NCBI RefSeq assembly: GCF_900103535.1
Contig: NZ_FNHQ01000020.1
Span: forward strand, 1 to 46,078
Reading direction: 5' to 3'
Length of the DNA: 46,078 nucleotides
Origin: Megasphaera paucivorans
GTDB lineage: Bacteria > Bacillota > Negativicutes > Veillonellales > Megasphaeraceae
Position 1 is the first letter of the stretch; every line of letters starts with the position of its first letter. The notes under the pieces are model-generated. The model searched no databases and was not told the DNA's origin. It was given only the letters and a program-made list of their open reading frames with translations. The position numbers and the translations under genes are program-made. Below, piece after piece: positions 1,066-18,911 of the stretch.

Positions 1066-3987
1066 ATGAAATTGGAGGTACATTCTGTTTATAACGGTTT
1101 TCGTGTGGATCGTTCCATGTATGTAGAAGAAATACATAGTCAGGCTTATAGCTTAACTCATGTAAAGTCAGGAGCACGGGTTTTATATTTGGCCAATGAT
1201 GATGATAACAAAGTTTTTTCTATTTCTTTCAAAACGCCGCCAACGGACAGCACGGGAGTACCGCATATTTGTGAGCATTCTGTACTTTGTGGTTCACGTA
1301 AATTTCCGCTTAAGGAACCCTTTGTCGAACTTGTCAAAGGATCATTGAACACCTTTTTGAATGCCATGACGTTTCCTGATAAAACAATGTATCCGGTAGC
1401 CAGCCGCAACGCAGCTGATTTTAAAAATCTTATGGATGTCTATTTGGATGCTGTTTTTTTCCCAAATATGCTAACGGATGAAGAAGTACTGATGCAGGAA
1501 GGCTGGCATTATGATATGGATGCTTCTGATGCTCCACTGACCTATCGCGGAGTAGTTTATAATGAAATGAAGGGGGCATTTTCTTCTCCAGATGCACTGA
1601 TGGAACGACATGTCATGGAAAATCTTTTTCCCCAAACGGCATATGGAGTAGAGTCCGGCGGGGATCCAGATGATATTCCGAATTTGACACAGCAGGCTTT
1701 CGTGGCATTTCATGCCAAATTTTATCATCCTTCTAACAGTTATATTTTCCTTTATGGAGACATGGATATAGAAAAAACGCTGGAGTTTATAGATGGCGAA
1801 TATCTTAGTAAATTTGATTGTATAGAGGTAAACTCGGAAATATACCGTCAAGTTCCTGTGCCTAGCACGGTAAAGTCATACCCGTATGGCATTGCTTCTG
1901 ATGACAATGAAGAAGGGAAGACATTGCATACGCTGACATATGTTATTGATGATGCACTGAATCCAACAGTGGGACTGGCTTTTAAAGTACTGACCTATGT
2001 CTTGCTGCAATCTCCGGCTGCTCCTCTCAAAAAAGCATTGCTTGATGCGGGGGTTGGTAAAGATGTATCTGGTGATTTTCAAGATGGTATTCTTCAGCCG
2101 GTTTGGTCGGTGTCTGTGAATGGTTCTGAAAAAGAAGCGCAGGAAAAAATTATTCCTGTTGTACAAAACGTGTTGACAGATATGATTAAAACAGGGATTG
2201 ATAAGACCCTGCTTATCGGAGCTTTGAACCGTACGGAGTTTACGCTGCGTGAAGCAGATTTTGCGGGTCGTCCCAAAGGCCTGATTTATGGAATCCGCTG
2301 CATGGATACATGGCTTTATGGGGGAGATCCTTTAGATACGCTAGCCTATGAAAATGATTTACAGGTATTGCGCCAAGGCATTGAAACCGGATATTATGAA
2401 CACCTTATCGAAAAGTACATTTTAAAGAATCCGTATCATGCTTTGATTACCATGGTTCCGGAAAAAGGTTTTACAGAACGACATGATCAGGAAATCGCAG
2501 ATTCATTGGAAGCATATAAAGCAGCATTGTCAAAAAGTGAAATTGATCATATTGTAGCCAAATCTCAAGCGTTAAAACAACGGCAAGCAACACCGGATTC
2601 CGCAGAAGCGTTGTTGTCTATTCCTACATTGCAGCGCAGCGATTTGGAATCGAAAGCAGAAAATGTAGTATTTCAAGTCGAAGACATGAGTAATATTCCT
2701 GTTTGCTATGTGCATGATGTTACAAATGGCATTGCCTATGTAAATGCATACTTTGATTTATATGGTTTTTCACGGGAAGAGTTATCTTATATATATCTTT
2801 TAAGTGACCTGATTGGTGATCTGGATACAACTTCCCACAGCTATGGCGAATTGGCATCGCAGATTGATTTATATACGGGGGGAATGGATTATAGCGTGTC
2901 CGCATATTCTGATATTCAGGATAATGAAGCATATACGCCTGTATTCCAGATAAAGACCAAAGTGTTAAGTCAAAATATCTCTAAACTGTTAGATTTGATG
3001 AAAGAGATTTCCCTGAACACGACATTTACTAATGCACAGCGTCTGCGGGAACTTATTGAAGAGACAAAATCCGGATGGGATATGGATGCGTTCCGTCGTG
3101 GTCATGTTATTGTGATGCATAGGGTATTGTCTTATCTTTCGGCTGTAGAGGGATTTTGTGATGCCGGAGAATTTTCTTATTATGAATTTATTACGGCAGC
3201 AGCTAAACAAGCAGGTCAAGATATAACGAAAATAGCTGACGGCTTGTCCCATGTTATGAAAAAGATATTTACCCAGTCTCGTATGACATTGGAAATTACC
3301 GGCAGTGAAGAAGATAAGGAAGTAGTCAAGAAACTTCTGCCGGCATGGCTTGCACAGATGCCTTTGGGAGAGAAGAATACAGTACTTTGCGACTTTTCTT
3401 GTAATAAGAAAAATGAAGGAATCATGACCAGTGGTAAAGTGCAGTATGTTGCTAAAGGAGGAAATTTCCGCCAGCACGGTTTTTCCTATACGGGGTCACT
3501 GCAGGTGTTGGAAACAATCTTGCAGTACGGATACTTGTGGACAAAAATTCGTGTTCAAGGCGGCGCATATGGTGCTTTCGCTAAATTTTATACGAATGGG
3601 GATATGGTTTTATGCTCGTATCGTGATCCTAATTTAAAGGATAGTATCCAAGTATATAACGAATTAGCGGAATATTTGTCTGCTTTTGATGTTTCAGAGC
3701 GAGAAATGACTAAATATGTTATTGGTACATTAAGCCGCATTGATATTCCTTTGACACCGTCTTTGCGGGGAGCTAAAGCTATGAACCGGTATTTCACGGG
3801 AAACACACAGGAAATGGCACAACAACGCCGCGATGAACTCTTGGCAACGACAGTTTCTGATATTCGGGCATTGGCACCATTAGTTAAAGCAGCTATGGCG
3901 GATAATTGCTTGTGTGTTATGGGAAATGAAACTGCCATTCGTCAGAATAAAGAACTGTTTGGAGAGCTTATTTCGTTGCCGGATTAA
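1066..3987 (+). CDS. M16C zinc metallopeptidase (insulinase / presequence protease family)
   Basis: The 973-aa length is typical for the PreP/Cym1-type M16C family, which degrades short unstructured peptides inside a closed two-lobed chamber. The inverted zinc motif HxxEH is visible as HICEH (H67, E70, H71), and a downstream acidic ligand lies in GVVYNEMKGAF (about E167). The characteristic CGSRKFPLKEPFVEL follows the zinc motif. The C-terminal half carries the second, non-catalytic lobe, with GGNFRQHG and RVQGGAYGAF. No signal peptide is seen, so it is probably cytosolic and recycles peptides. It lies between a phosphatase gene and gluQ, only 11 bp from the latter. Confidence 0.9.
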   Translation: MKLEVHSVYNGFRVDRSMYVEEIHSQAYSLTHVKSGARVLYLANDDDNKVFSISFKTPPTDSTGVPHICEHSVLCGSRKFPLKEPFVELVKGSLNTFLNAMTFPDKTMYPVASRNAADFKNLMDVYLDAVFFPNMLTDEEVLMQEGWHYDMDASDAPLTYRGVVYNEMKGAFSSPDALMERHVMENLFPQTAYGVESGGDPDDIPNLTQQAFVAFHAKFYHPSNSYIFLYGDMDIEKTLEFIDGEYLSKFDCIEVNSEIYRQVPVPSTVKSYPYGIASDDNEEGKTLHTLTYVIDDALNPTVGLAFKVLTYVLLQSPAAPLKKALLDAGVGKDVSGDFQDGILQPVWSVSVNGSEKEAQEKIIPVVQNVLTDMIKTGIDKTLLIGALNRTEFTLREADFAGRPKGLIYGIRCMDTWLYGGDPLDTLAYENDLQVLRQGIETGYYEHLIEKYILKNPYHALITMVPEKGFTERHDQEIADSLEAYKAALSKSEIDHIVAKSQALKQRQATPDSAEALLSIPTLQRSDLESKAENVVFQVEDMSNIPVCYVHDVTNGIAYVNAYFDLYGFSREELSYIYLLSDLIGDLDTTSHSYGELASQIDLYTGGMDYSVSAYSDIQDNEAYTPVFQIKTKVLSQNISKLLDLMKEISLNTTFTNAQRLRELIEETKSGWDMDAFRRGHVIVMHRVLSYLSAVEGFCDAGEFSYYEFITAAAKQAGQDITKIADGLSHVMKKIFTQSRMTLEITGSEEDKEVVKKLLPAWLAQMPLGEKNTVLCDFSCNKKNEGIMTSGKVQYVAKGGNFRQHGFSYTGSLQVLETILQYGYLWTKIRVQGGAYGAFAKFYTNGDMVLCSYRDPNLKDSIQVYNELAEYLSAFDVSEREMTKYVIGTLSRIDIPLTPSLRGAKAMNRYFTGNTQEMAQQRRDELLATTVSDIRALAPLVKAAMADNCLCVMGNETAIRQNKELFGELISLPD

Positions 3988-5565: not shown

Positions 5566-6498
5566 ATGGAATTTCATCATGTGAGCGTCCTGCTCAATGA
5601 AATGATAGATAATATTATAGGTGATCCCAATGGAGTATATGTAGACTGTACTCTTGGCGGCGGCGGCCATTCCAGGGCGCTTGCCGAGCGATTGTCCGAT
5701 CAGGCAACACTTATTGGTTTAGATCAAGATAGCGATGCCATAACTGCAGCTGTAAATAAGCTGGAAGGCACTGCATGTCGATTTATTCCGGTGCAACGTA
5801 ATTTTCAGGATATTGGAAATGTTCTTGATATGCTTTGTATTGAAAAAGTTGACGGAATTATGTTTGATTTAGGCGTATCCAGTTATCAGCTGGATACACC
5901 GGAACGAGGATTTTCTTATATGCAGGATGGTCCTTTGGATATGCGGATGAATCAATCACAAAAACAGAGTGCGTATGATGTGATTAATACATATAGTGAA
6001 GCGGATTTATACCGGATTATTAAAGATTACGGAGAAGAACGGTGGGCTAAGCGGATAGCGTCTTTTATTGTGGCGTCTCGAAATGAAAAGCCGATATGCC
6101 GGACAGAGGAACTTGTAAGAATAATTAAGAAAGCCGTACCCGCGGGTGCTCGTAAGGATGGACCGCATCCGGCCAAAAGAACTTTTCAGGCGATTCGAAT
6201 TGAAGTAAATGATGAATTGGGAATTCTTAAAAATACATTTGAAACAGCGGCAGAGCGTCTTAAAACAGGCGGTCGTATTGCGGTTATTACCTTTCATTCA
6301 CTGGAAGATCGTATTGCTAAACAGACCTTAAAGCGGATGGCGACTAACTGTATTTGTCCTCCGGGTATGCCTGTATGTACTTGTAATCATCATGCTATTT
6401 TGAAGGTATCTCGTCATGCTATTGAACCGGGAGATAAAGAGTTGGAATGCAACCCGCGTGCGCGAAGCGCAAAATTGCGTGTTGGGATTCGGATATAA
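5566..6498 (+). CDS. rsmH: 16S rRNA (cytosine1402-N4)-methyltransferase RsmH
   Basis: RsmH (MraW) methylates C1402 in the decoding centre of 16S rRNA using S-adenosylmethionine. Visible signatures are the start FHHVSVLLNEMID, the SAM-binding loop VDCTLGGGGHS (around residues 25-36), FDLGVSSYQLD, RGFSYMQDGPLDMRM and FHSLEDRIAKQTLKR. The length of 310 aa is standard. It has an AGGAGG site just upstream and follows mraZ by 8 bp, as in the usual mraZ-rsmH-ftsL order. Confidence 0.96.
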   Translation: MEFHHVSVLLNEMIDNIIGDPNGVYVDCTLGGGGHSRALAERLSDQATLIGLDQDSDAITAAVNKLEGTACRFIPVQRNFQDIGNVLDMLCIEKVDGIMFDLGVSSYQLDTPERGFSYMQDGPLDMRMNQSQKQSAYDVINTYSEADLYRIIKDYGEERWAKRIASFIVASRNEKPICRTEELVRIIKKAVPAGARKDGPHPAKRTFQAIRIEVNDELGILKNTFETAAERLKTGGRIAVITFHSLEDRIAKQTLKRMATNCICPPGMPVCTCNHHAILKVSRHAIEPGDKELECNPRARSAKLRVGIRI

Positions 6499-6540
6499 TA
6501 TACCAGACGTATATAGATATATATTTTATAATTTGATCGG

Positions 6541-6963
6541 ATGTGGTATAATATGCTAGCCAGAAAAGCAGGTTATTATAATTATCAAAACCAAGGCACG
6601 CGGACAATTGCTGTTCATTATACCGGAGATGCCGCATACGGTACGAGAGCGGAGGAACGCAAATTTTCCCAGGTTTTGTGGAAAACATTTGCTTTGATTG
6701 CTATTATAGGTATCTTGCTTTTGGCACATGTGGCTATTTCAGCAGCCGCAGCGAATAGTGGGTATAATTTGATGCGGGAAAAACAACAGGTACAACAATT
6801 TTATCGTGAAAATGTGGATTTACGATTGGATATTGCCAAAATGGAATCGCCGGACCGGATTTATTCTACGGCGACGCAAAAATTGGGAATGGTTGCACCC
6901 GGACAGGTGCTGTACGGCCCTTCATATGCAAAGAGCAGCGTGGGAAAACACGCAGGTAAATAG
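6541..6963 (+). CDS. ftsL: FtsL-like septum formation protein
   Basis: This 140-aa protein has a cytoplasmic N-terminal stretch of about 50 residues and one hydrophobic segment (FALIAIIGILLLAHVAISAAA, about residues 51-70). A coiled-coil-prone extracytoplasmic part (LMREKQQVQQFYRENVDLRL) and a C-terminal PDRIYSTATQKLGMVAP follow, the topology and ending of FtsL/DivIC proteins. FtsL joins FtsB/DivIC and FtsQ to activate septal peptidoglycan synthesis. Its place after rsmH is canonical. The start is uncertain: ATG 6541 and ATG 6553 are in frame, and neither has a good Shine-Dalgarno sequence. The expected next gene, ftsI, is missing. Confidence 0.8.
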   Translation: MWYNMLARKAGYYNYQNQGTRTIAVHYTGDAAYGTRAEERKFSQVLWKTFALIAIIGILLLAHVAISAAAANSGYNLMREKQQVQQFYRENVDLRLDIAKMESPDRIYSTATQKLGMVAPGQVLYGPSYAKSSVGKHAGK

Positions 6964-6972
6964 AGCAATATG

Positions 6973-7010
6973 AGCAGCCTTTTTCCGTAAGGCTGCTATT
7001 TGCATTTTTT
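6973..7010 (+). terminator. Hairpin between ftsL and murE, probable (partial) terminator
   Basis: AGCAGCCTT (6973-6981) pairs with AAGGCTGCT (6989-6997), and a run of six T follows at 7005-7010. The T run is offset by seven bases, so termination may be incomplete. It lies exactly where ftsI would normally be. Confidence 0.55.
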
Positions 7011-7056
7011 GAAAATAGCTTGATTCAAACCGAAATCAGTTGTTTAGGAGGAATTT

Positions 7057-8547
7057 ATGATGAAAACAATAGGAGAACTTTGTAAGATAATTAATGGAAT
7101 ATATAATATTAAAGGTAATGTCGAAAAGAAAATTACGGGGATTTCTTCTGACTCCAGAAAAATAGAAGCAGGCGATTTATTTATCTGCCTGCCTGGAGTA
7201 CATGTTGATGGATCTGTTTTTGCCAAACAAGCAGTGGAAAAAGGTGCTGCTGCTGTGTTGACCACCAAACATCTGGATTTGCCGCCGCAAGTTGTACAAA
7301 TTACAGTACACAATATTCATGAAGCGATGGAAGATGTTGTTCCGTATTTTTATGATTATCCAGGTAAAAAAATGCGTATGATAGGAGTTACAGGAACAAA
7401 TGGAAAAACGACAACGACGCATATTATTGCTCATATTTTGCGTAGTGCCGGATATCATGTCGGTGTTATTGGAACGATTCATGCCCTTATTGACGATGAA
7501 GAATTGCCTATTCATAATACGACTCCGGATGTTGTAGAATTACAACAATTTTTATCGCTTATGTATGAAAAAGGAATTACCCACGTGGTTATGGAAGTAT
7601 CGAGTCATGCTTTAGATATGAAACGTGTGGCGGGGTGTGAATACGATACTGCGGTGTTCACGAATTTGACACAAGACCATTTGGATTATCATAAAACCTT
7701 TGAAAATTATTTGGCAGCTAAGGAAAAGCTTTTTCAAGGATTAAGTTCTGGTGAACATGTTAAAGATAATAAGACTGCAATTGTTAACATTGACGATCCT
7801 TATGGAAAAGATATTCTCGGTGTTTGCAAATGCAAGGTATTGACCTATGGAGTTGAAAAGGAAGCAGATCTTAAGGGTGCTAACTTGAAAGTAGAGTTAA
7901 AGAGTTCTTCCTTTGATGTGACGGGACCATTTGGAAGTGTTTCTCTCCATATGCAGATTACAGGATTATTTAATGTATACAACACCTTGGCAGCTATTGG
8001 AGCTGCCCATGCAGAAGGGGTTTCTACAGAAATTATTGACAAAGCGATCCAAACCTTTCATTCTGTGCCAGGACGTTTTGAACTTGTAGAAGAAGGACAA
8101 GATTTTGCAGTTATTGTTGATTATTCGCACACTCCGGATAGTTTGGAAAAAGCACTTACAACAGCGCGAGCAATGAATCCGAAACGGATTATTGCCGTAT
8201 TCGGATGTGGGGGGGATCGAGACCGGACAAAACGTCCCATTATGGGCCGCATTGCTGCAGAATATGCAGATATTCCTATCGTTACATCTGATAATCCTCG
8301 GTCAGAAAACCCGGAAGATATTGTTAAAGAAGTAGAAAAGGGTGTACTGGAAGGATTAAAAGAAGGACAACATCATGAAGTTATCGTAGATAGGCGATCA
8401 GCCATTTGCCGAGCTGTAGCAATAGCTCAAAGCGGGGATATCATTTTGATTGCCGGAAAAGGTCATGAAACATATCAGATTTTGAACAGCGGGACTATTC
8501 ATTTTGATGACCGTGAGGTAGCTCGTGACGCGATAAAGGGGAGATGA
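7057..8547 (+). CDS. murE: UDP-MurNAc-L-Ala-D-Glu:meso-DAP ligase MurE
   Basis: MurE adds the third amino acid to the peptidoglycan stem peptide in the cytoplasm, using ATP. The 496-aa sequence has the Mur ligase P-loop GVTGTNGKTTTTH (about residues 110-122), the DHLDYHKTFENY region and IVDYSHTPDSLEKAL. The specificity motif DNPRSENP is near residue 412; DNPR is the signature of enzymes selecting meso-diaminopimelate rather than lysine. AGGAGG lies upstream of ATG 7057, with a second ATG directly after. Its stop overlaps the murF ribosome-binding region, which indicates coupled translation. Confidence 0.96.
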   Translation: MMKTIGELCKIINGIYNIKGNVEKKITGISSDSRKIEAGDLFICLPGVHVDGSVFAKQAVEKGAAAVLTTKHLDLPPQVVQITVHNIHEAMEDVVPYFYDYPGKKMRMIGVTGTNGKTTTTHIIAHILRSAGYHVGVIGTIHALIDDEELPIHNTTPDVVELQQFLSLMYEKGITHVVMEVSSHALDMKRVAGCEYDTAVFTNLTQDHLDYHKTFENYLAAKEKLFQGLSSGEHVKDNKTAIVNIDDPYGKDILGVCKCKVLTYGVEKEADLKGANLKVELKSSSFDVTGPFGSVSLHMQITGLFNVYNTLAAIGAAHAEGVSTEIIDKAIQTFHSVPGRFELVEEGQDFAVIVDYSHTPDSLEKALTTARAMNPKRIIAVFGCGGDRDRTKRPIMGRIAAEYADIPIVTSDNPRSENPEDIVKEVEKGVLEGLKEGQHHEVIVDRRSAICRAVAIAQSGDIILIAGKGHETYQILNSGTIHFDDREVARDAIKGR

Positions 8548-8549
8548 AC

Positions 8550-9935
8550 ATGGCAGCCTTTACGATACAAGAAGTTGAGAAAGCAACAGAAGGAACAGTA
8601 TCATATCCAATTCAAGATGAAATGTTTTTTTCTAAAGTAGAAACGGATACAAGAAATATAGGTCCCGGATCGTTATTTGTTGCGCTGAAAGGTGAAAAAT
8701 TTGATGGGCATGACTTTGTATGCCAAGCGCGTGATAATGGGGCGACCGGTGCAGTTGTACAGGAATATAGAGAAGAATATAAGAAAGATAATTTTGCTGT
8801 TATTCTTGTTGCCAACACAGTAACCGCATATCAGGGATTAGCAAGGTTCCATCGGCGGCGTTTTGATATTCCCATTGTGGCTGTAACGGGCTCTGTGGGT
8901 AAAACGACAACACGTAATATGATTGCGTCTGTTTTGGCACAGAAATATACTGTTTTGCAGACAGAAAAAAATTTTAATAATGAAATTGGGTTGCCGAAGA
9001 CATTGCTGCAGTTAACGGAAAATCACGGTGCTTGCGTTGTGGAAATGGGAATGCGCGGACTGGGACAAATTGCTGATTTAGCGGCTGTAGCGGAACCGAC
9101 GGTTGGCGTTGTGACTAATGTGGGAAAAAGTCATATTGAACTGCTGGGATCTCAGGCCAACATTGCCAAAGCGAAAAGTGAACTAGTCAAAGCTCTGACG
9201 GAAAATGGGGCGGCAATTTTAAATCAGGATGATCCGTATACTGCGGCCATGGCTGATTTGTGCAAAGGAAAAGTTGTCAGTTTTGGCTTGGGTAATGATG
9301 CTGTTATACAGGGAAGCCGCATTTTTATGGATGAGCAGGGTGTACATTTTACGTGCCGCTGTTTTGATGAAATGTTTGACGTATTGATTCCATCTCTGGG
9401 AGAACATAATGTTTACAATGCGTTGGCGGCTATTTCTGTAGGTCGGATACTGGGGCTTTCAGATAGAAAAATGCAAAAAGGACTGCTTGAGTATCAAAGC
9501 GAAGCAATGCGGCAGGAATTGATACGTATTGGATCGTATACGTTTATTAATGATGCGTATAATGCCAATCCTGCGTCGATGCAAGAAGCGGTCAGAACTC
9601 TTGCAAAACTTGGAAAAGGTCGTAAAATTGCTGTTCTTGGTGATATGTTAGAGCTGGGTGATTGGGCGCAGAAGGAGCATGAAAAAATTGGTATTGAAGC
9701 CGCTGCATTAGGGATTGATGCGATAATAGCGTTGGGACCTCTTGCTGAGTATATTGCATCGGCAGCTGAAAATGCTGGAATGATCGAAGTGCATACAGTA
9801 GAAAATCATGCAGCAGCGGCATCTTGTTTAAAGCATATCCTTCAGCCGGGAGATACCGTTCTTCTTAAAGGATCACGAGGAATGGCGATGGAGAAGATAC
9901 TGCCTTATTTTGAAAGGAAGTCATGTGAATGTTAA
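8550..9935 (+). CDS. murF: UDP-MurNAc-tripeptide:D-Ala-D-Ala ligase MurF
   Basis: MurF joins D-Ala-D-Ala, made by Ddl, to the UDP-MurNAc tripeptide and completes the cytoplasmic precursor. The P-loop VTGSVGKTTTRNM lies near residue 112. Typical later motifs are EKNFNNEIGLP, VVEMGMRG, NVGKSHIE, NDAYNANPASM and LGDMLELG. I place the start at ATG 8550 because AAAGGGGAG (8535-8543) is 6 bp upstream. ATG 8544, two codons earlier, abuts the Shine-Dalgarno sequence directly. The protein is about 461 aa, and its end overlaps the mraY start by 7 bp. Confidence 0.95.
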   Translation: MAAFTIQEVEKATEGTVSYPIQDEMFFSKVETDTRNIGPGSLFVALKGEKFDGHDFVCQARDNGATGAVVQEYREEYKKDNFAVILVANTVTAYQGLARFHRRRFDIPIVAVTGSVGKTTTRNMIASVLAQKYTVLQTEKNFNNEIGLPKTLLQLTENHGACVVEMGMRGLGQIADLAAVAEPTVGVVTNVGKSHIELLGSQANIAKAKSELVKALTENGAAILNQDDPYTAAMADLCKGKVVSFGLGNDAVIQGSRIFMDEQGVHFTCRCFDEMFDVLIPSLGEHNVYNALAAISVGRILGLSDRKMQKGLLEYQSEAMRQELIRIGSYTFINDAYNANPASMQEAVRTLAKLGKGRKIAVLGDMLELGDWAQKEHEKIGIEAAALGIDAIIALGPLAEYIASAAENAGMIEVHTVENHAAAASCLKHILQPGDTVLLKGSRGMAMEKILPYFERKSCEC

Positions 9936-10897
9936 ATACGCTGATCTATGGATTTGCAGTCAGCTTGGTCATAGCACTGGCATTAGGTCCATTTGTTATA
10001 CGGGAATTAAAATCCTTTCACGCTCGTCAATCGGAGCGGGAAGAAGGACCGGCGAGCCATAAAATAAAAGCGGGGACTCCAACTATGGGAGGCGTTTTAA
10101 TTTTAACGGCTTTAGTGGTATCTTGTTTGGTTTTTGATCCGCTGGATCTGCGTAAGGGATTGGCCCTGTTTTTGACATTAGGTCATGGAGCAATTGGTTT
10201 TTTAGACGATGGAATCAAATCATTGAAGCATCGGAACTTGGGTCTTACGGCAAAGCAAAAATTGATCGGGCAGTTTATTATGGCAGCAATGTTCTGCGGT
10301 ATCTTAAAAGTATATTTGGATTTTCCTACGACGTTGTGGATACCATTTACAAACTGGCATATTGAAATTGGTATATTCTATTACTTGTTTGTCTTTGTGA
10401 TGATAGTCGGAACGAGTAATGCCGTGAATCTTACCGATGGACTAGATGGTTTGGCAGCCGGTTCTTGTGCAATTACTTCTGTGGCGTATGTAGTTATTGC
10501 TGTGGCTTTGGGATATATTAATTTTGCCGTATTTTGCGCAGCTATGGCCGGAGCTTGTTTAGGATTTTTATTTTATAACCAGCATCCGGCAAAAATGTTT
10601 ATGGGTGATACGGGTTCCTTGGCATTAGGGGGAGCATTGGCGGCAATGGCAATTCTTACGAAAACGGAATTGCTTCTTATTATAGCCGGCGGTTTATACG
10701 TGATTGAAGCATTATCGGTAATTATACAGGTTACTTCCTTTAAGACTCGGGGGGTACGTGTGTTTAAGATGAGTCCGATCCACCATCATTTTGAATTATC
10801 AGGGTGGAGTGAAGTGAAAGTTGTTACGGTTTTTTGGAGTTTTTCAGCAATAATGGCAATTATTGCCATTATTATTGTATTGTCCACGACTAATTAA
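9929..10897 (+). CDS. mraY: Phospho-N-acetylmuramoyl-pentapeptide transferase MraY
   Basis: MraY is the integral membrane enzyme that transfers phospho-MurNAc-pentapeptide to undecaprenyl phosphate, forming lipid I. The 322-aa protein is hydrophobic throughout (about ten membrane segments). It keeps the acidic GFLDDGIK loop, NLTDGLDGLAAG (near residue 167), FMGDTGSLALGG and the histidine-rich SPIHHHFELSGW near residue 285. These are all catalytic or Mg2+-binding regions of the family. The start overlaps the end of murF. Confidence 0.96.
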   Translation: MLNTLIYGFAVSLVIALALGPFVIRELKSFHARQSEREEGPASHKIKAGTPTMGGVLILTALVVSCLVFDPLDLRKGLALFLTLGHGAIGFLDDGIKSLKHRNLGLTAKQKLIGQFIMAAMFCGILKVYLDFPTTLWIPFTNWHIEIGIFYYLFVFVMIVGTSNAVNLTDGLDGLAAGSCAITSVAYVVIAVALGYINFAVFCAAMAGACLGFLFYNQHPAKMFMGDTGSLALGGALAAMAILTKTELLLIIAGGLYVIEALSVIIQVTSFKTRGVRVFKMSPIHHHFELSGWSEVKVVTVFWSFSAIMAIIAIIIVLSTTN

Positions 10898-10918
10898 TAA
10901 TTAAAAGAGGCGTTTTCA

Positions 10919-12283
10919 ATGAGTATAATGGATTTTTCTGGTAAGACTGTACTGGTTATTGGTGCTGGAATCAGTGGCAAAGCTGCAGCACGTGTATTGG
11001 CTGGACATGGTGCATCAGTTATTTTAAATGATATGAAGAAAATTGATGCATCGGAAGAACCGTGGACGATTCTTGCCGCATCGGGTGTGAAGCTTGTTTT
11101 TGGCAGCCAGGAAACGTCTCTTCTTGATACAACGGATATTGTTGTACCTTCTCCTGTTATTTCTCCGGAAATTCCTATTATGCGGGAAGCGGTAAAAAGA
11201 GGGATCCCTATTTGGAGTGAAGTAGAAGTAGCGAGCCGTGTTACGGATGCAGATATCCTCGGAGTGACGGGTACTAATGGTAAAACGACTACGACTACGT
11301 TGCTTGGAAAAATTATGGAAGCAACTGGACGACATACTGTAGTAGGCGGCAATATTGGTATTGGACTTTCGGAACAAGCAGCGGATTTACCTGCAGGAGA
11401 TGTGGTTGTTGCAGAACTTTCCAGTTTTCAACTTGAAAATACCCAGACACTTAGACCTAAAGCTGCTTGTGTACTGAACATTACGCCAGATCATATGGAT
11501 CGGCATCATACAATGGAAGCGTATGCTGCTGCAAAAGAACGTATTTTTCGTAATCAGACCAAACAGGAAACCGCTGTTTTGAATTATGATGATCCACTGG
11601 TCAGACAAATGGAGAAGAATATACAAAGTAGGATTTTATATTTTTCAACAAATACAGAAGTTCCTGCGGGTGCTTTCTTGCGAAATGAAGAATTGATTCT
11701 GAGAATCAATGGCAGCGATACATGTATATGCCGGACGAATGAACTGAAATTATTCGGCAAGCATAATATTCAAAATTGTTTAGCTGCTTTTTTGATTGCA
11801 TATGCTGCGGGAGCACCGCTTGCGGTTATTCGTAAAGTTCTTAAAGAATTCAGCGGAGTGGAACATCGCATTGAATTTGTACGTACGATTCAAGGAGTTC
11901 CATATTATAACGATAGTAAAGGAACCAATACGGATGCATCTATTAAGGCATTGGAAGCGTTTTCCGGACATGTTATTCTTATTGCCGGGGGACATGATAA
12001 AATGACTCCTCTTGATACATTCATGCAGCTGGCAGCAAAAAAAGTGGATATACTGATTTTAGTCGGTGAAGCGGGCGACCGATTTGAAAAAGAGGCTCGC
12101 AAGGCTGGGGTGAAAACTATTTACCGCGCCGGGTTTGATATGGAAAAGGCCGTAGGAATGGCTCGAAACATGGCAGCGGCACCACAAGTAATATTGTTGT
12201 CACCTGCGTGTTCCAGCTACGATATGTATGACAATTTTGAACAGCGCGGCGACGATTTTAAACGAATTGTCTGGTCGCTATAG
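10919..12283 (+). CDS. murD: UDP-MurNAc-L-Ala:D-Glu ligase MurD
   Basis: MurD adds D-glutamate to UDP-MurNAc-L-Ala in the cytoplasm. The 454-aa sequence begins with a Rossmann loop (VLVIGAGISGKAA). It has the P-loop GVTGTNGKTTTTT near residue 115, then AELSSFQLENTQ, NITPDHMDRHHTMEAYA, NDSKGTNTDAS and the C-terminal LLSPACSSYDMYDNFEQRGDDF, which is diagnostic for MurD. An AGAGG lies upstream; ATG 10928 is an alternative start three codons in. The usual next gene, ftsW, is absent, and murG follows after 40 bp. Confidence 0.95.
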   Translation: MSIMDFSGKTVLVIGAGISGKAAARVLAGHGASVILNDMKKIDASEEPWTILAASGVKLVFGSQETSLLDTTDIVVPSPVISPEIPIMREAVKRGIPIWSEVEVASRVTDADILGVTGTNGKTTTTTLLGKIMEATGRHTVVGGNIGIGLSEQAADLPAGDVVVAELSSFQLENTQTLRPKAACVLNITPDHMDRHHTMEAYAAAKERIFRNQTKQETAVLNYDDPLVRQMEKNIQSRILYFSTNTEVPAGAFLRNEELILRINGSDTCICRTNELKLFGKHNIQNCLAAFLIAYAAGAPLAVIRKVLKEFSGVEHRIEFVRTIQGVPYYNDSKGTNTDASIKALEAFSGHVILIAGGHDKMTPLDTFMQLAAKKVDILILVGEAGDRFEKEARKAGVKTIYRAGFDMEKAVGMARNMAAAPQVILLSPACSSYDMYDNFEQRGDDFKRIVWSL

Positions 12284-12323
12284 TATGTAGTATAAGCTGA
12301 AGTGAAAATAGGGAGGAAGAGGC

Positions 12324-13442
12324 ATGCGTCGTGTCATTATATCCGGTGGAGGAACAGGTGGTCATATCTATCCCGCGATTACCATTGCCAGATCTATTGC
12401 AGATATTGAACCGACAGAGTTTTTATATGTGGGTTCTAAAGTTGGCTTGGAAAATACGCTGATACCTAAAGAAGGGCTGCCTTTTGTCACGCTGGATGTA
12501 CGAGGATTGGAACGAAAAATATCTATTCGCAATATGGTTACATTGAAAAAAACTGTTGGCAGTATGGTACAAGCCCGATGGTTATTACATAAATTTAAGC
12601 CACAAGTCGTTATTGGAACCGGAGGATTTGTTTGCGGTCCGGTACTTTTAGCGGCTAGTTTAAGCGGGATACCCACACTTATTCAGGAACAAAATGTTAT
12701 TCCGGGTATTACCAATACAATTTTAAGTAAATTTGTCGATGTTGTGGCACTCGGTTATGAAGAAGCTTCTGGCCGTTTTAATCAAAAAACAAAATTGGTA
12801 GTTACCGGAAATCCTGTCCGTAAAGATATTTTAACTGTATCTAAAAAGACAGGACGGGCTTTTTTGGGATTAGATCCGGGAAAATTTACAATTTTGGTTG
12901 CTGGTGGCAGCCGTGGTGCTCGTACAATTAATACAGCCATGGTAGAAGCGCATCAGTACTTTAAAGATGATCCGGATATACAGATTTTACATGTGACGGG
13001 AAATGCTGAATATGAACAGGTTGTGGAACAACTTCCGGGAATTAGTGAAAAAGGGAAGTATGGTTCAGGGAGTTATATTATTCCATATCTTCACCATATG
13101 CCAGAAGCACTGGCAGCGGCGGATCTAGCGGTATATCGTGCGGGAGCAGTGGGATTGGCGGAATTGACTGTACGAGGACTGCCTTCCATATTGATACCCT
13201 ATCCCTATGCAGCCGAAGATCATCAGCGATATAATGCGCAGGCTTTGGTCATGTGCGGTGCTGCAAAAATGATTTTAGATAAGATGCTTACAGGACGGGA
13301 ACTTATTGAAGAAATCGTTCATTTAAAAAACGATCCTGTGGCTTTGAAACGAATGGCTGAAGCCAGTAAGTCTTTGGGAAAGCCTAAGGCTGCATATGAT
13401 ATCGCAAAGTTGGCATTGTCCATCGCACGCGACTCAAAATAA
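12324..13442 (+). CDS. murG: UDP-GlcNAc:lipid I N-acetylglucosaminyltransferase MurG
   Basis: MurG is the GT28 enzyme at the inner face of the membrane that converts lipid I to lipid II. The 372-aa protein opens with the glycine-rich ISGGGTGGHIYPAI. It also has GTGGFVCGPVLLAA, LIQEQNVIPGITN, VAGGSRGARTIN and the UDP-GlcNAc site YRAGAVGLAELTVRGLPSILIPYP. The Shine-Dalgarno sequence gggaggaagagg is close to ATG 12324. It ends 15 bp before the murC-ddl fusion. Confidence 0.96.
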   Translation: MRRVIISGGGTGGHIYPAITIARSIADIEPTEFLYVGSKVGLENTLIPKEGLPFVTLDVRGLERKISIRNMVTLKKTVGSMVQARWLLHKFKPQVVIGTGGFVCGPVLLAASLSGIPTLIQEQNVIPGITNTILSKFVDVVALGYEEASGRFNQKTKLVVTGNPVRKDILTVSKKTGRAFLGLDPGKFTILVAGGSRGARTINTAMVEAHQYFKDDPDIQILHVTGNAEYEQVVEQLPGISEKGKYGSGSYIIPYLHHMPEALAAADLAVYRAGAVGLAELTVRGLPSILIPYPYAAEDHQRYNAQALVMCGAAKMILDKMLTGRELIEEIVHLKNDPVALKRMAEASKSLGKPKAAYDIAKLALSIARDSK

Positions 13443-13457
13443 AGGGAGTGCATACAC

Positions 13458-15779
13458 ATGTTGAATACTGTGAAAAAAGTACATTTTATAGGAATAGCCG
13501 GCGCCGGTATGAGAGCGATTGCGAATGTTTTGCTGCAAAAGGGATATTATATTTCCGGGTCTGATGTAAAGCAATCCGCTATTACAGAACGATTCGCTCA
13601 GCAGGGCGCACGTATTTGTATTGGACAGAAACCGGAAAATCTGCAAGATGCAGAACTGGTTGTTGTTTCTTCGGCAATTCACGAAGATAACGTAGAACTG
13701 CAGGAAGCACATAGGCGTAATATACCCGTTATCCATCGATCCGATGCATTGTTGGATATTATGAGCTGGGGAAAGGGAATTGCCATAGCTGGAGCACACG
13801 GAAAAACAACTACATCCTCTATGCTGGGACAGATTTTTGTAGAAGGGGGAACAGATCCGACTGTTGTCATTGGAGGAGAAGTAGATTACCTTCACGCTAA
13901 TTCTGTATTAGGAAAAGGCGAATATGTCATTGCAGAAGCTGATGAAAGTGATGGATCCTTTGTAAAATTTAACCCTTATATTGCAGTGGTTACTAATATT
14001 GATGCCGACCATATGGATCATTACGGCTCTTTGGATAATGTCATCAATGCGTTTAAGGTTTTTATACAGAAACTTGACCCAAAGGAAGGAATGGCAGTTC
14101 TTTGTTTTGACAATGAACATATCCGCAATCTGGCCCCTGCCTTAAACCGCCGTTATATATCCTACGGAATAGAAAATCAGGCGGACTACACAGCAGATCA
14201 TATCCATTATGAAAAAGGCCGACTTTGTTTTGATGTGTATCATCATGATAAAAAAATGGGAACAATGAATCTTTTTGTGCCGGGACGCCACAACGTGCTG
14301 AATACATTGGCTGCTGTTGCAGTAGCGGATGCTTGTGGTATTCCTTTTGAAAAGATCTCAGAAGCCATGTCGCATTTTCATGGAGCAAAACGCCGTTTTC
14401 AGACGAAAGGGTATGTTGGCGATGTTTGGGTCGTTGATGATTACGGACATCATCCTGCTGAAATTAATGCCACGTTAACGGCCGCTAAAGATATAGGAAC
14501 CCATCGTATTGTCTGTGTATTTCAACCGCACCGGTATACGCGAACGCAATTACTGGTGGATCGTTTTGGCGGAGCATTTAAAAATGCAGATTTGCTTATT
14601 GTTACAGATATATACAGCGCTGGCGAAACACCAATTCCGAATGTAACTGGAGAAATTATTGCCAATAAGGTTGTTGAAACAACAGGACAAGAGGTTTTGT
14701 ATATTCCTAATAAAGAAGACGTAGTAGAATATTTGAAAAAATTTGCTCAACCGAAAGAAATGATTATTACTATGGGGGCTGGCGATATTTACCGTGTGGG
14801 AGAACAATATATTGCTGAATCAAGCGGTGAAGATACGAGCAATATTGATGTAAAAACTAAAAAAATTGCCGTTGTTGTCGGCGGACCTTCGACGGAAGCT
14901 GCTGTCTCTCGTAATACAGGCGGGGCGATTGCCAAAGCTCTCATTTCTAAAGGATATCAAGTTACCGTAATGGAATTGAATCCACATATGCTGGCCCAAC
15001 AGCTGATAGATGAAAAAATTGATATTGTATTTAATGCACTGCATGGCCGGTATGGGGAAGATGGTCTGATACAGGGATTATGTGAAATGATGGGAATTCC
15101 GTATACTGGCTCCGGAGTTATGGCCAGTGCTGTAGGCATGAATAAAGTGATGAGCAAATGTGCTTTTCAAGGTGCAGGAATTGCTACCGCACCTTTCTCG
15201 TATTACTTTGAAAATCAAGGGTTAGATACTATCGCTGAAGATATTACGAAACGATTTGGTTTTCCTGTGGTTATAAAATCCGCAGGGCAGGGGTCGAGTA
15301 TCGGTACTGTTATTGTCGATGCACAAACTAAAGTTAAATCGGCATTAGTGGAAGCGTTTAAATATGGAAAATCACTGATTGCAGAGTCTTTTATTGATGG
15401 GGATGAATTTACTGTCGCGGTTATGGATAATATGGTATTCCCTGTTATTCAAATTGTATCGAGTACTGGTAAATACGATTATTATTCAAAATATACACCT
15501 GGGGTGACAAAACATCTCTGTCCAGCGCCGATTTCGGAAAATTTGACAAAAAAAATGCAGGATTTAGCAATGCAAGTCTTTCATTTATGCCATTGCAATG
15601 GTGTAGCACGTGTCGATTTTATGACGGATGCAGGGGAAAATCCTTTTGTTTTGGAAATTAATACCGTTCCAGGAATGACCAGTACAAGTTTGGTTCCCGA
15701 TGCAGCAAGAGCCATGGGAATATCCTTTGAAGAATTATGTGAAAATATATTGCTGGAAGCAGCAGTTGGTAAATTTTAA
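13458..15779 (+). CDS. murC-ddl: Fused MurC (UDP-MurNAc:L-Ala ligase) and Ddl (D-Ala-D-Ala ligase)
   Basis: One uninterrupted 773-aa frame encodes two ligases. Residues 1 to about 456 are a full MurC: HFIGIAGAGM, P-loop GAHGKTTTSSM near 112, EADESDGSF, NIDADHMDHYGS and DDYGHHPAEI. It adds L-Ala to UDP-MurNAc. After a roughly 10-residue polar linker (SSGEDTSNID) comes a full Ddl from about 465: VVGGPSTEAAVSRNTG, ALHGRYGEDG, the ATP-grasp IKSAGQGSSIG, the omega-loop YDYYSKYTPG with the Tyr typical of D-Ala-D-Ala enzymes, and LEINTVPGMT. Both halves keep their catalytic motifs. Coupling the first and last amino-acid supply steps in one polypeptide is known from Chlamydia. Confidence 0.95.
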   Translation: MLNTVKKVHFIGIAGAGMRAIANVLLQKGYYISGSDVKQSAITERFAQQGARICIGQKPENLQDAELVVVSSAIHEDNVELQEAHRRNIPVIHRSDALLDIMSWGKGIAIAGAHGKTTTSSMLGQIFVEGGTDPTVVIGGEVDYLHANSVLGKGEYVIAEADESDGSFVKFNPYIAVVTNIDADHMDHYGSLDNVINAFKVFIQKLDPKEGMAVLCFDNEHIRNLAPALNRRYISYGIENQADYTADHIHYEKGRLCFDVYHHDKKMGTMNLFVPGRHNVLNTLAAVAVADACGIPFEKISEAMSHFHGAKRRFQTKGYVGDVWVVDDYGHHPAEINATLTAAKDIGTHRIVCVFQPHRYTRTQLLVDRFGGAFKNADLLIVTDIYSAGETPIPNVTGEIIANKVVETTGQEVLYIPNKEDVVEYLKKFAQPKEMIITMGAGDIYRVGEQYIAESSGEDTSNIDVKTKKIAVVVGGPSTEAAVSRNTGGAIAKALISKGYQVTVMELNPHMLAQQLIDEKIDIVFNALHGRYGEDGLIQGLCEMMGIPYTGSGVMASAVGMNKVMSKCAFQGAGIATAPFSYYFENQGLDTIAEDITKRFGFPVVIKSAGQGSSIGTVIVDAQTKVKSALVEAFKYGKSLIAESFIDGDEFTVAVMDNMVFPVIQIVSSTGKYDYYSKYTPGVTKHLCPAPISENLTKKMQDLAMQVFHLCHCNGVARVDFMTDAGENPFVLEINTVPGMTSTSLVPDAARAMGISFEELCENILLEAAVGKF

Positions 15780-15803
15780 TTATAATGTTGGTGAGATTTT
15801 GTG

Positions 15804-16754
15804 ATGAAAAATGATGAGAAAGATATCTTTTCTATTCCAATACTGAATACGGATGATGTACAGTCTCATCAGGATGTGTCGGAGACGTTGCTGCCTCAGG
15901 ATAAATTTATTCCTCCGGAAGTACCGGACGACCCGTTGAGAAAAACTGTTTCTGATGGAGCAGAAACAGAACAGCCGCATAAGGAGCAGATCGAGGCTAA
16001 GAGCGTACTGCATTCCGGCAAATACAAAAAAAAACGGCGGACAGGAGACTTGCAGCACCGGTATCGGTTATTTGTTATACTGGCGGTCATATTGGTTTTT
16101 TTACTGTGGCTTCTTTTGCGTTTTTCTCCGGTATCCTTTGGCCGTGTGATTGTAGATGGCAACAGTACTATGTCAAATGAGGCTGTTTACCGCAGCTGCG
16201 GCATTGTCGGTCCCGTTAATGTAGTTCAATTGTCACCAGATACAATGAAGGATAATCTGAGCAATGATCTGCGTGTTGCACGAGTTGAAGTAGTACGCGA
16301 GTTTCCTGCGACGATTCACGTTACCATAGAAGAACGCAAGCCTATAGCTGTTATGACGACGATGTATGGTTTTGCGTATTTGGATGCTAATGGTGTAGTT
16401 ATTCAGCTGGGACAGAGAATTAAGGGCATATCTGTGCCTCTTTTTACAGGTAAAAAAATGGACACACTCCTTTTGGGAGATGTTATAAAAAATGGTTCGG
16501 TTCGGGATTCTTTGACATATTTACAGAATCTATCTCCTGAATATTTAAATCAAGTAGCGGAAGTAAATGTGGGAAATCCGGATAAGATTACGGTATATAC
16601 ATCGGATTCTATTCCTATCTACTTAGGAAATGGCGATCATCCGGAACAACGAGCTCATATTACAGAGGAACTGCTGCAGGAGGTCAAAAATAACCGTTTA
16701 TCTGTTGCGTATATTGACAGTGATGTTCAAGCACCTCTGGTGAAGAGTAAATAG
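15804..16754 (+). CDS. ftsQ: Cell division protein FtsQ/DivIB
   Basis: This bitopic protein of about 316 aa has a long charged cytoplasmic N-terminus (about 85 residues). One membrane helix follows (LFVILAVILVFLLWLLL). Next is a POTRA domain starting FGRVIVDGNSTMSNEAVYRSCGI and a beta domain with VVREFPATIHVTIEERKPIAV and YLDANGVVI. FtsQ scaffolds the FtsL/DivIC complex in the divisome. GGTGAG at 15790-15795 supports ATG 15804; the preceding GTG 15801 is directly adjacent. The extended acidic cytoplasmic tail is longer than in enterobacterial FtsQ. Confidence 0.88.
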   Translation: MKNDEKDIFSIPILNTDDVQSHQDVSETLLPQDKFIPPEVPDDPLRKTVSDGAETEQPHKEQIEAKSVLHSGKYKKKRRTGDLQHRYRLFVILAVILVFLLWLLLRFSPVSFGRVIVDGNSTMSNEAVYRSCGIVGPVNVVQLSPDTMKDNLSNDLRVARVEVVREFPATIHVTIEERKPIAVMTTMYGFAYLDANGVVIQLGQRIKGISVPLFTGKKMDTLLLGDVIKNGSVRDSLTYLQNLSPEYLNQVAEVNVGNPDKITVYTSDSIPIYLGNGDHPEQRAHITEELLQEVKNNRLSVAYIDSDVQAPLVKSK

Positions 16755-16766
16755 AAAGGAAAGACT

Positions 16767-17444
16767 GTGAGAGTACAAGAAGGAAAAATTGCGATTACGT
16801 TTGCCTGCGTATTATTGGGAATCATGCTGGTTACACAATATAAAGCGGCACAGAGCGTACTGCCTGTCACTTCGCAGCGTGCGGACGAACTTATTTCCAA
16901 GGTCAGGGACTTGGAGGCTGACAATAAGTCTCTGAAGAAACAAATCAGCGAACTTGGTGGGGATAAAGACACGCAATTACAGGAACTTCGCTATGATGCG
17001 GGAGTTTTGCCTGTAGAAGGGCCTGGTATTATCGTGACGCTGGATGATAGTACGCAGCCTAAAATGCAGGGGACTAATCCTAATTTATATATTATTCATG
17101 ATGAAGATTTACTGCGTATTGTCAATGAACTCCGGGCTGCAGGGGCAGAGGCATTATCAATCAATGGGCAGCGATTGATTGGTACATCGGAAATTCGATG
17201 TGTAGGGCCTAACATCAATATTAATGGTAAAATATTATCACCGCCCTTTGAAATCAAAGCTATCGGTGATATGCATTCGTTATCAGGAGCACTTAATCTG
17301 CGTGGCGGAGTCAAAGAAAGCTTAAAATATTGGGGAATTGAATTGCAAATCCGAAAATTGGAAATGATCGTTGTTCCTGCATATGAAGGCGCATTCCGTC
17401 ACGAATATGCTCGTATTTCCAAAAAGGAGGCAGATAATTCATGA
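16767..17444 (+). CDS. DUF881 membrane-anchored protein (YlxW/YlxX-like)
   Basis: This 225-aa protein has an N-terminal membrane anchor (IAITFACVLLGIMLVTQY). A coiled-coil stretch (ELISKVRDLEADNKSLKKQI) and the DUF881 core follow; in the core GPGIIVTLDDS, LRAAGAEALSINGQRL and GALNLRGGVKESL are recognisable. The family often sits between ftsQ and ftsZ in Firmicutes and relatives, but its biochemical role is unknown. The start is GTG 16767 behind AAAGGAAAG. The last four bases overlap the next start (ATGA). Confidence 0.85.
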   Translation: MRVQEGKIAITFACVLLGIMLVTQYKAAQSVLPVTSQRADELISKVRDLEADNKSLKKQISELGGDKDTQLQELRYDAGVLPVEGPGIIVTLDDSTQPKMQGTNPNLYIIHDEDLLRIVNELRAAGAEALSINGQRLIGTSEIRCVGPNININGKILSPPFEIKAIGDMHSLSGALNLRGGVKESLKYWGIELQIRKLEMIVVPAYEGAFRHEYARISKKEADNS

Positions 17445-17785
17445 TATATCCGATAATCGGTATGGCTATGGGGATATGCATAGGCATTATAATGCCTGAT
17501 TTGTCTGTTTCTCCTGATATGGCAAAACTGCTGGCGACGGCTTTGCTGGCCTGTCTTGATTCCGTATTTGGCGGAATACGGGCGACCTTGAATAAAAATT
17601 TTAATAACAGGATGTTTTTAGTTGGATTTTTTTCAAATGCATTTATGGCCGCAATTTTTGTATTCGTCGGATTACGGTTGGGTATAGATTTATATTTTGT
17701 TGTGCTTATTACCTTTGGTATGCGTATTTTTCAAAATATGGCCCGGATTCGCAGAAAACTCCTAGTTTATAAGCCTGAGAAATGA
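17441..17785 (+). CDS. sbp: Small basic protein (DUF1290, Sbp family)
   Basis: This 114-aa protein is very hydrophobic and probably spans the membrane three or four times. The region LLACLDSVFGGIRATLNKNFNNRMFLVGFFSNA is the conserved centre of the small-basic-protein family found next to ftsZ in Firmicutes. It overlaps the upstream DUF881 gene by four bases, so the two are translationally coupled. The function is unknown; genomic context suggests a role in division or envelope assembly. Confidence 0.82.
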   Translation: MIYPIIGMAMGICIGIIMPDLSVSPDMAKLLATALLACLDSVFGGIRATLNKNFNNRMFLVGFFSNAFMAAIFVFVGLRLGIDLYFVVLITFGMRIFQNMARIRRKLLVYKPEK

Positions 17786-17804
17786 AATTAATTTAAAAAT
17801 AATG

Positions 17805-17856
17805 TGGATTAATTCCTTTAGATAGTGTAAAATAATAAGGAAATCCTATCTAAAAG
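17805..17856 (+). promoter_or_regulatory. Candidate ftsZ promoter framed by an inverted repeat
   Basis: TAAAAT at 17828-17833, with a weak TGGATT 17 bp upstream (17805-17810), could drive ftsZ. CTTTAGATAG (17816-17825) and CTATCTAAAAG (17846-17856) form an inverted repeat with a one-base bulge around the -10. It could be an operator or a 5'-UTR hairpin. Confidence 0.35.
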
Positions 17857-17888
17857 TACAAGTATGCATATTCGAAGGAGGAAACAAT

Positions 17889-18911
17889 ATGGCAGAGTTT
17901 GCAAATATAAAGGTTATTGGTGTCGGCGGTGGCGGAAATAACGCTGTCAATCGTATGATAGAAAGCGGTTTACAGGGTGTTCAGTTTATTTCCGTCAATA
18001 CAGAGGATCAGGTATTGGAAGTATCCAAAGCTGATGTGAAAATTCAGATTGGTGAAAAGCTGACTCGCGGTCTCGGTGCTGGTGCTAATCCCCAAATCGG
18101 CGAACAGGCTGCTCTTGAAAGCAAGGAAGAAATTATAAAAGCTCTTCAGGGAGCTGATATGGTGTTTGTAACGGCCGGCATGGGCGGCGGTACAGGTACG
18201 GGCGCAGCGCCTATTGTTGCTGAATGTGCTAAAGAAATGGGAGCTCTTACTGTTGCAGTAGTAACTAAGCCGTTTGCTTTTGAAGGCAAACGTCGTAAGG
18301 AACAGGCTGAAAAAGGTGCGGCGTATTTAAAAGAAAAAGTAGATACGATTATTACGATTCCCAACGATAAATTACTTCAGATTATTGACAAAAAGACACC
18401 TCTTAAAGATGCGTTTTTGGTGGCTGATGATGTATTACGTCAAGGTGTACAGGGCATTTCCGATTTGATTACAACAACTGGTTTGATTAATCTTGATTTT
18501 GCTGATGTGAAAACGATTATGCTTGATCAGGGAGAAGCCATTATGGGTATCGGTATCGGATCGGGTGAAAACCGTGCTACGGAAGCTGTTGATGGCGCTA
18601 TTCACAGTGCTCTTCTGGAAACCAGTATTGATGGAGCGCAAAGTATATTGCTCAATGTTACGGGCGGTCCGGATATCAGCTTGTATGAAATTAATGAAGC
18701 AGCTGAAAAGGTTGCAGAAGCAGTTGATCCCGACGCTAATATCATTTTTGGTTCTGTTATCGATCCGGATATGGAAGATTCTATTCGCATTACCGTTGTG
18801 GCTACCGGTTTTGGCAAGGAACCATCGACGATTCCTTCCTTTGGGCAATCTGGTACAGTGAACGATAAAAAGGAAGCAAGTGGTGTGGAAATTCCTACGT
18901 GGATGAGATAA
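17889..18911 (+). CDS. ftsZ: Cell division GTPase FtsZ
   Basis: FtsZ is the tubulin homologue that forms the cytokinetic ring. The N-terminal [18 protein letters not shown], the tubulin signature [13 protein letters not shown] (about residues 98-110), the T7 synergy loop [11 protein letters not shown] and the C-terminal EIPTWMR peptide are all present. The last resembles the conserved tail that binds FtsA/SepF. At 340 aa the protein is short: the linker between the globular domain and the tail is only some 25 residues. AAGGAGG lies upstream of ATG 17889. No ftsA precedes it. Confidence 0.97.

Follow-up and report, generated by a model that had tools for sequence, protein, structure and literature searches.

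A predicted bifunctional MurC-Ddl protein in Megasphaera paucivorans and probable repeated fusion of murC and ddl in the Negativicutes

Results

The fused gene and its two halves

In Megasphaera paucivorans, MurC and D-Ala-D-Ala ligase (Ddl) are encoded by one open reading frame. This frame very probably specifies a bifunctional MurC-Ddl enzyme, which arose when two neighbouring genes of the operon fused in place. Chlamydia is known to have this architecture, and the M. paucivorans case is a new, independent member.

The window, that is, the whole stretch of DNA analysed, comprises 46,078 nucleotides; the relevant features are collected in Table 1. The initial annotation had described a single 773-residue frame with a complete MurC and a complete Ddl, and both family models bore this out: the MurC half exceeded the NCBIfam cut-off of TIGR01082 (335 bits), and the Ddl half that of the D-Ala-D-Ala ligase model PRK01372 (243 bits). 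The MurC half also matched PF01225, PF08245 and PF02875 of Pfam. The P-loop expected near residue 112 was placed there, and the short linker expected near residues 456-465, followed by a Ddl with a Tyr-containing omega loop, was likewise located. Both domains lie in one uninterrupted frame, which is kept across species.

Table 1. Features of the fused gene and of its neighbours in the window
Feature	Position	Strand	Evidence
murG, upstream neighbour	12324..13442	+	TIGR01133, 310 bits
murC-ddl fused gene	13458..15779	+	one open frame, ATG to TAA, 773 codons/773 aa
MurC half, residues 7-450	13476..14807	+	TIGR01082, 523 bits
P-loop GAHGKTTT, residues 112-119	13791..13814	+	MurC motif
Linker, residues 456-465 (about), where the murC stop and the ddl start were lost	14823..14852	+	comparison of the junction with 15 Megasphaera species
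Ddl half, residues 466-769	14853..15764	+	PRK01372, 358 bits; alignment to solved DdlB
Ddl omega loop KYDYYSKYTPG, residues 672-682	15471..15503	+	DdlB alignment, Tyr present
ftsQ, downstream neighbour	15801..16754	+	POTRA_1 and FtsQ_DivIB_C

Comparison with solved MurC showed that the P-loop and the motifs EADESDG, HNVLN and DDYGHHP are all present. The alignment with solved DdlB gave the same result for GGPSTE, HGRYGEDG, KYDYYSKY, RVD, LEINTVPG and SLVP. The P-loop GAHGKTTT carries Ala in place of Thr; this residue is common to unfused Megasphaera MurC and is ordinary. The Van-type models scored far under their cut-offs against the Ddl half (VanG, 188 against 495; D-Lac, 140 against 550).

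Predicted structure

The AlphaFold2 model of the fused protein, calculated from a shallow alignment of fused and separate proteins, had a mean pLDDT of 80.6 and a pTM of 0.59. Alignments A2 and A3, in which the MurC tails are misplaced, were excluded from the modelling; in A1 six residues are misplaced. The linker was the least ordered stretch of the junction, with pLDDT values below 50 at residues 457-463. The modelled MurC half matches MurC crystal structures with a TM-score, by target length, of about 0.9. The modelled Ddl half finds DdlB structures, but its whole-domain superposition is poor (rmsd of about 12 Å to known Ddl); this half of the model is only fair because the alignment is shallow. 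The model is consistent with two domains joined by a short, flexible tether, and their mutual orientation in it is unreliable.

Genome context and copy number of Ddl

The local gene order is murG-[murC-ddl]-ftsQ. The initial annotation had put the fused gene in the canonical place of separate murC, murB and ddl genes; this was incorrect with regard to murB, which lies outside this cluster on a different contig. The dcw cluster (5566-18911) is without ftsW and ftsI and has no ftsA ahead of ftsZ, and two SEDS genes were found on contigs other than that of the cluster. The dcw SEDS/bPBP genes in Firmicutes have been linked to sporulation (PMC10693644). Upstream of the cluster, a PreP-like M16C metallopeptidase of 973 aa is encoded at 1066-3987.

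A check for a second free ddl, which the initial annotation had called for, revealed no other convincing Ddl in a PF07478 search of the M. paucivorans genome (99.97% complete). The three other PF07478 matches in the genome were weak (38-51 bits). The frames that contain them, of 1072, 455 and 1143 codons, would by their size fit carbamoyl-phosphate synthase, biotin carboxylase and pyruvate carboxylase.

Separate murC and ddl genes in the sister genus

In all 15 species of the sister genus Megasphaera that were compared, including M. massiliensis, M. cerevisiae, M. hutchinsoni and M. micronuciformis, murC is directly followed by ddl at the same place as two genes. These separate genes share place and order with the fused gene and are 64-77% identical to it (halves up to 74-77%), but the first ends at a stop codon and the second has a start of its own. 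In 6 of the 15 species ddl is in the murC frame, with one in-frame stop between the two. The murC stop lies mostly 9-13 codons past the junction reference point, and 17 codons past it in one species. In the tree of MurC and Ddl, the family's 17 loci group together with full support, and the fused pair is nested among them. Since the genes of the sister genus are separate at the same place, the fusion is a local event in the genus of M. paucivorans. In the ancestor of this genus, the murC stop and the ddl start were lost while the frames were in register, and this in-place fusion left the linker of about 10 residues. Codon 460 of M. paucivorans is ACG, right after GGTGA, and is ACA in the second species of the genus; the ACG may be what remains of the former ddl start.

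The genus was sampled by two species, M. paucivorans and that represented by the metagenome-assembled genome JALCNL01 ('Megasphaera sp. isolate UW_MP_MEG2_1'; hereafter G001, loci L006 and L043), in which the frame and its length are identical. The two fused genes share 97% identity in protein and 91% in DNA, with a dS of 0.43, a dN of 0.017 and an overall dN/dS of 0.04. The dN/dS values of the MurC and Ddl halves were 0.037 and 0.038, respectively. By this comparison, both halves are under purifying selection as parts of one frame. The linker of G001 carries base changes, and the frame stays open.

Distribution and number of origins

We sampled 165 genomes of Negativicutes. In at least 11 genomes among the matches listed, Ddl is part of a fused frame that measures about 760-900 codons, and all 11 long frames were checked and hold MurC and Ddl. 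They belong to M. paucivorans (one genome), to the genera g46 (six) and g72 (two) of family f14, and to the genus g34 (two) of family f25. The initial annotation had pointed to a MurC-Ddl fusion in a diderm Firmicute; this stands, but the fusion is not unique there, as it occurs in three other genera of the class. In g72, about 54 of the 58 genomes with a match have a frame of at least 733 codons, the exceptions being shorter or split pieces, and eight members were verified as fused. Almost all species of one genus, which numbers more than 60, carry the fusion. The remaining members of the class have murC and ddl either as separate neighbours or with another gene between them (gap of about 1340 bases). 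This gene reads as murA in the three cases inspected; the gapped loci include L096, L103 and L111. Part of the class thus lacks the adjacency that a fusion would require.

No MurC-Ddl was found among the matches listed for a sample of the rest of the phylum, nor in the twelve long Ddl frames inspected in a sample of Actinomycetota. The latter were rejected as fusions; their extensions look non-coding and are without MurC. Two frames of 590-594 codons (G120 and G176) were likewise rejected as other Ddl fusions: the region read contains separate genes in one case, and the second is an overlapping frame. Outside the Negativicutes, a frame of 813 codons (L121:1035-3473; G197, contig 22) joins a PF06838 methionine gamma-lyase family domain to a complete Ddl. 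In G240 (contig 10; L120:2344-3801), within a frame of 839 codons, Ddl is followed by a MurF-like Mur ligase N-terminal domain; this is possibly a Ddl-MurF fusion of consecutive steps.

The other fusions of the class resemble that of M. paucivorans in domain order, in their short linkers and in holding a whole MurC and a whole Ddl in one frame, but differ from it in origin. On the MurC and Ddl tree, which was built from 99 loci with the linker omitted, four changes are required to explain the fused label: one falls in the genus of M. paucivorans, one in f25 and two in f14. In AU tests, run on sets smaller than the 99 loci, a single clade of all fused proteins was rejected (p = 4e-132), as were joint clades of the M. 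paucivorans genus with f14 (4e-10) or f25 (1e-4) and of f25 with f14 (1e-39). A joint clade of g46 and g72 was not rejected (p = 0.28). Since the fused proteins fall into more than one clade, the class has seen no fewer than three independent fusions; judging from the tree, the MurC-Ddl fusion arose at least three and probably four times in Negativicutes.

Alternative explanations

A sequencing or assembly error could have erased a stop or a start and given a false single frame. In six close relatives only one stop parts the in-register murC and ddl. The genome of G001, however, was assembled independently and, at 91% DNA identity, has an equal frame of equal length with a changed but open linker. 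An artefactual loss of a stop near 14830-14850, against which the initial annotation had warned, is excluded by this second species, and we consider an error of this kind very improbable, unless it is common to the two assemblies. Horizontal transfer of an already fused gene, from Chlamydiae or another fused lineage, would account for the domain order, which equals that of the chlamydial protein. Against this, the unfused Megasphaera genes that occupy this place match the two halves at identities of up to 74-77%. In addition, the protein scored 474 bits on the chlamydial MurC-Ddl equivalog NF011171, far below its curated cut-off of 1015 and near the other Negativicute fusions (477-494), while unfused Megasphaera MurC alone already reaches 340 bits. 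The AU tests reject joint clades with the fused proteins of f14 and f25. The probability of transfer is thus negligible. The independent origin that the initial annotation had raised as a question is upheld by the unfused Megasphaera neighbours and the low NF011171 score; with respect to Chlamydia, it rests on family-model scores and the local origin rather than on a joint tree.

It is also conceivable that the fused frame is read but that the working Ddl is mainly a separate product, released by proteolysis of the linker or made by internal initiation. The linker is predicted to be disordered, and in both species of g34 (L066/G080 and L067/G091) the fused frame still has an ATG, with GGAGG upstream, where ddl once started. 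This f25 genus may therefore yield a fusion and a free Ddl from one frame. The genus of M. paucivorans, in contrast, is without such a Shine-Dalgarno-preceded start. In M. paucivorans, codons 448 to 504 include no ATG, GTG or TTG, which leaves a whole Ddl without a conventional internal start. A GTG is found at codon 447 in both M. paucivorans and G001, with no Shine-Dalgarno motif ahead of it; initiation there is possible in principle and would give a Ddl with a tail of 20 residues. We regard a mainly separate Ddl as unlikely, and infer that cleavage and a separately started Ddl are absent in M. paucivorans. For the notion that one half is inactive and is carried as a passenger we found no supporting point; the dN/dS of about 0.037 in both halves, the lack of a second Ddl and the conserved active-site residues speak strongly against it, making it highly improbable.

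Discussion

In the bifunctional enzyme that we favour, the N-terminal half would ligate L-Ala to UDP-MurNAc, and the C-terminal half would join two D-Ala to give the product used by MurF. As the only Ddl found in the genome, the fused protein would have to supply D-Ala-D-Ala for the whole cell, at a fixed 1:1 ratio with MurC. We infer both activities and the 1:1 supply from the analyses described above.

The usual proposals for such a fusion are a fixed ratio of the two enzymes or membership in a Mur complex. It is plausible that, as the initial annotation had it, the fusion ties the first stem-peptide step to the supply of the terminal dipeptide. Negativicutes might fuse MurC to Ddl repeatedly because physical coupling is favoured: the state of MurC could tune Ddl, for example, or the two could share one Mur complex, with the supply of D-Ala-D-Ala following the entry of UDP-MurNAc. 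We offer this only as a tentative idea, and a rather doubtful one. If it were true, the separate fusions and the f25 genus, with possibly both fused and free Ddl, would be natural replicates. It has already been remarked that the MurC and Ddl reactions are not consecutive (PMC6420597), and direct channelling is therefore not expected.

The chlamydial MurC-Ddl makes D-Ala-D-Ala (PMC3935232, PMC4803751), and in C. trachomatis the fused structure is reportedly required for Ddl activity (McCoy and Maurelli 2005, cited in PMC4803751). The initial annotation had recognised the M. paucivorans fusion as of the type known from Chlamydia, and rightly so: the same two enzymes stand in the same order in one chain. 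The M. paucivorans protein differs in its independent origin and its linker of about 10 residues, and it belongs to a Firmicute with ftsZ and ftsQ in the dcw cluster. Neighbouring cell-wall genes have also given bifunctional enzymes in the MurB/MurC fusion of Verrucomicrobium (PMC4803751) and the MurE-MurF fusion of Bordetella (PMC6420597); these are other pairs, which catalyse consecutive steps, unlike MurC and Ddl.

Our literature search found no paper on a MurC-Ddl fusion in Negativicutes, Megasphaera or Selenomonas, and a survey of metabolic gene fusions does not name MurC-Ddl in its main text. Automatic labels for such proteins may already exist in UniProt or RefSeq. The papers found treat MurC-Ddl as a feature of Chlamydia, and the repeated origin in one class is the part worth following. 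At least three origins in one class of free-living diderm Firmicutes, always at the same gene place, show that murC and ddl fuse readily, and one genus with over 60 species has retained the fusion for a long time. Should the Ddl half depend on the MurC half, as has been reported for Chlamydia, the finding would bear on the joint working of the two enzymes and on inhibitors such as D-cycloserine. If the Ddl half is independent of the MurC half, the joining of the two operon genes would be nearly neutral, and this too would be of interest.
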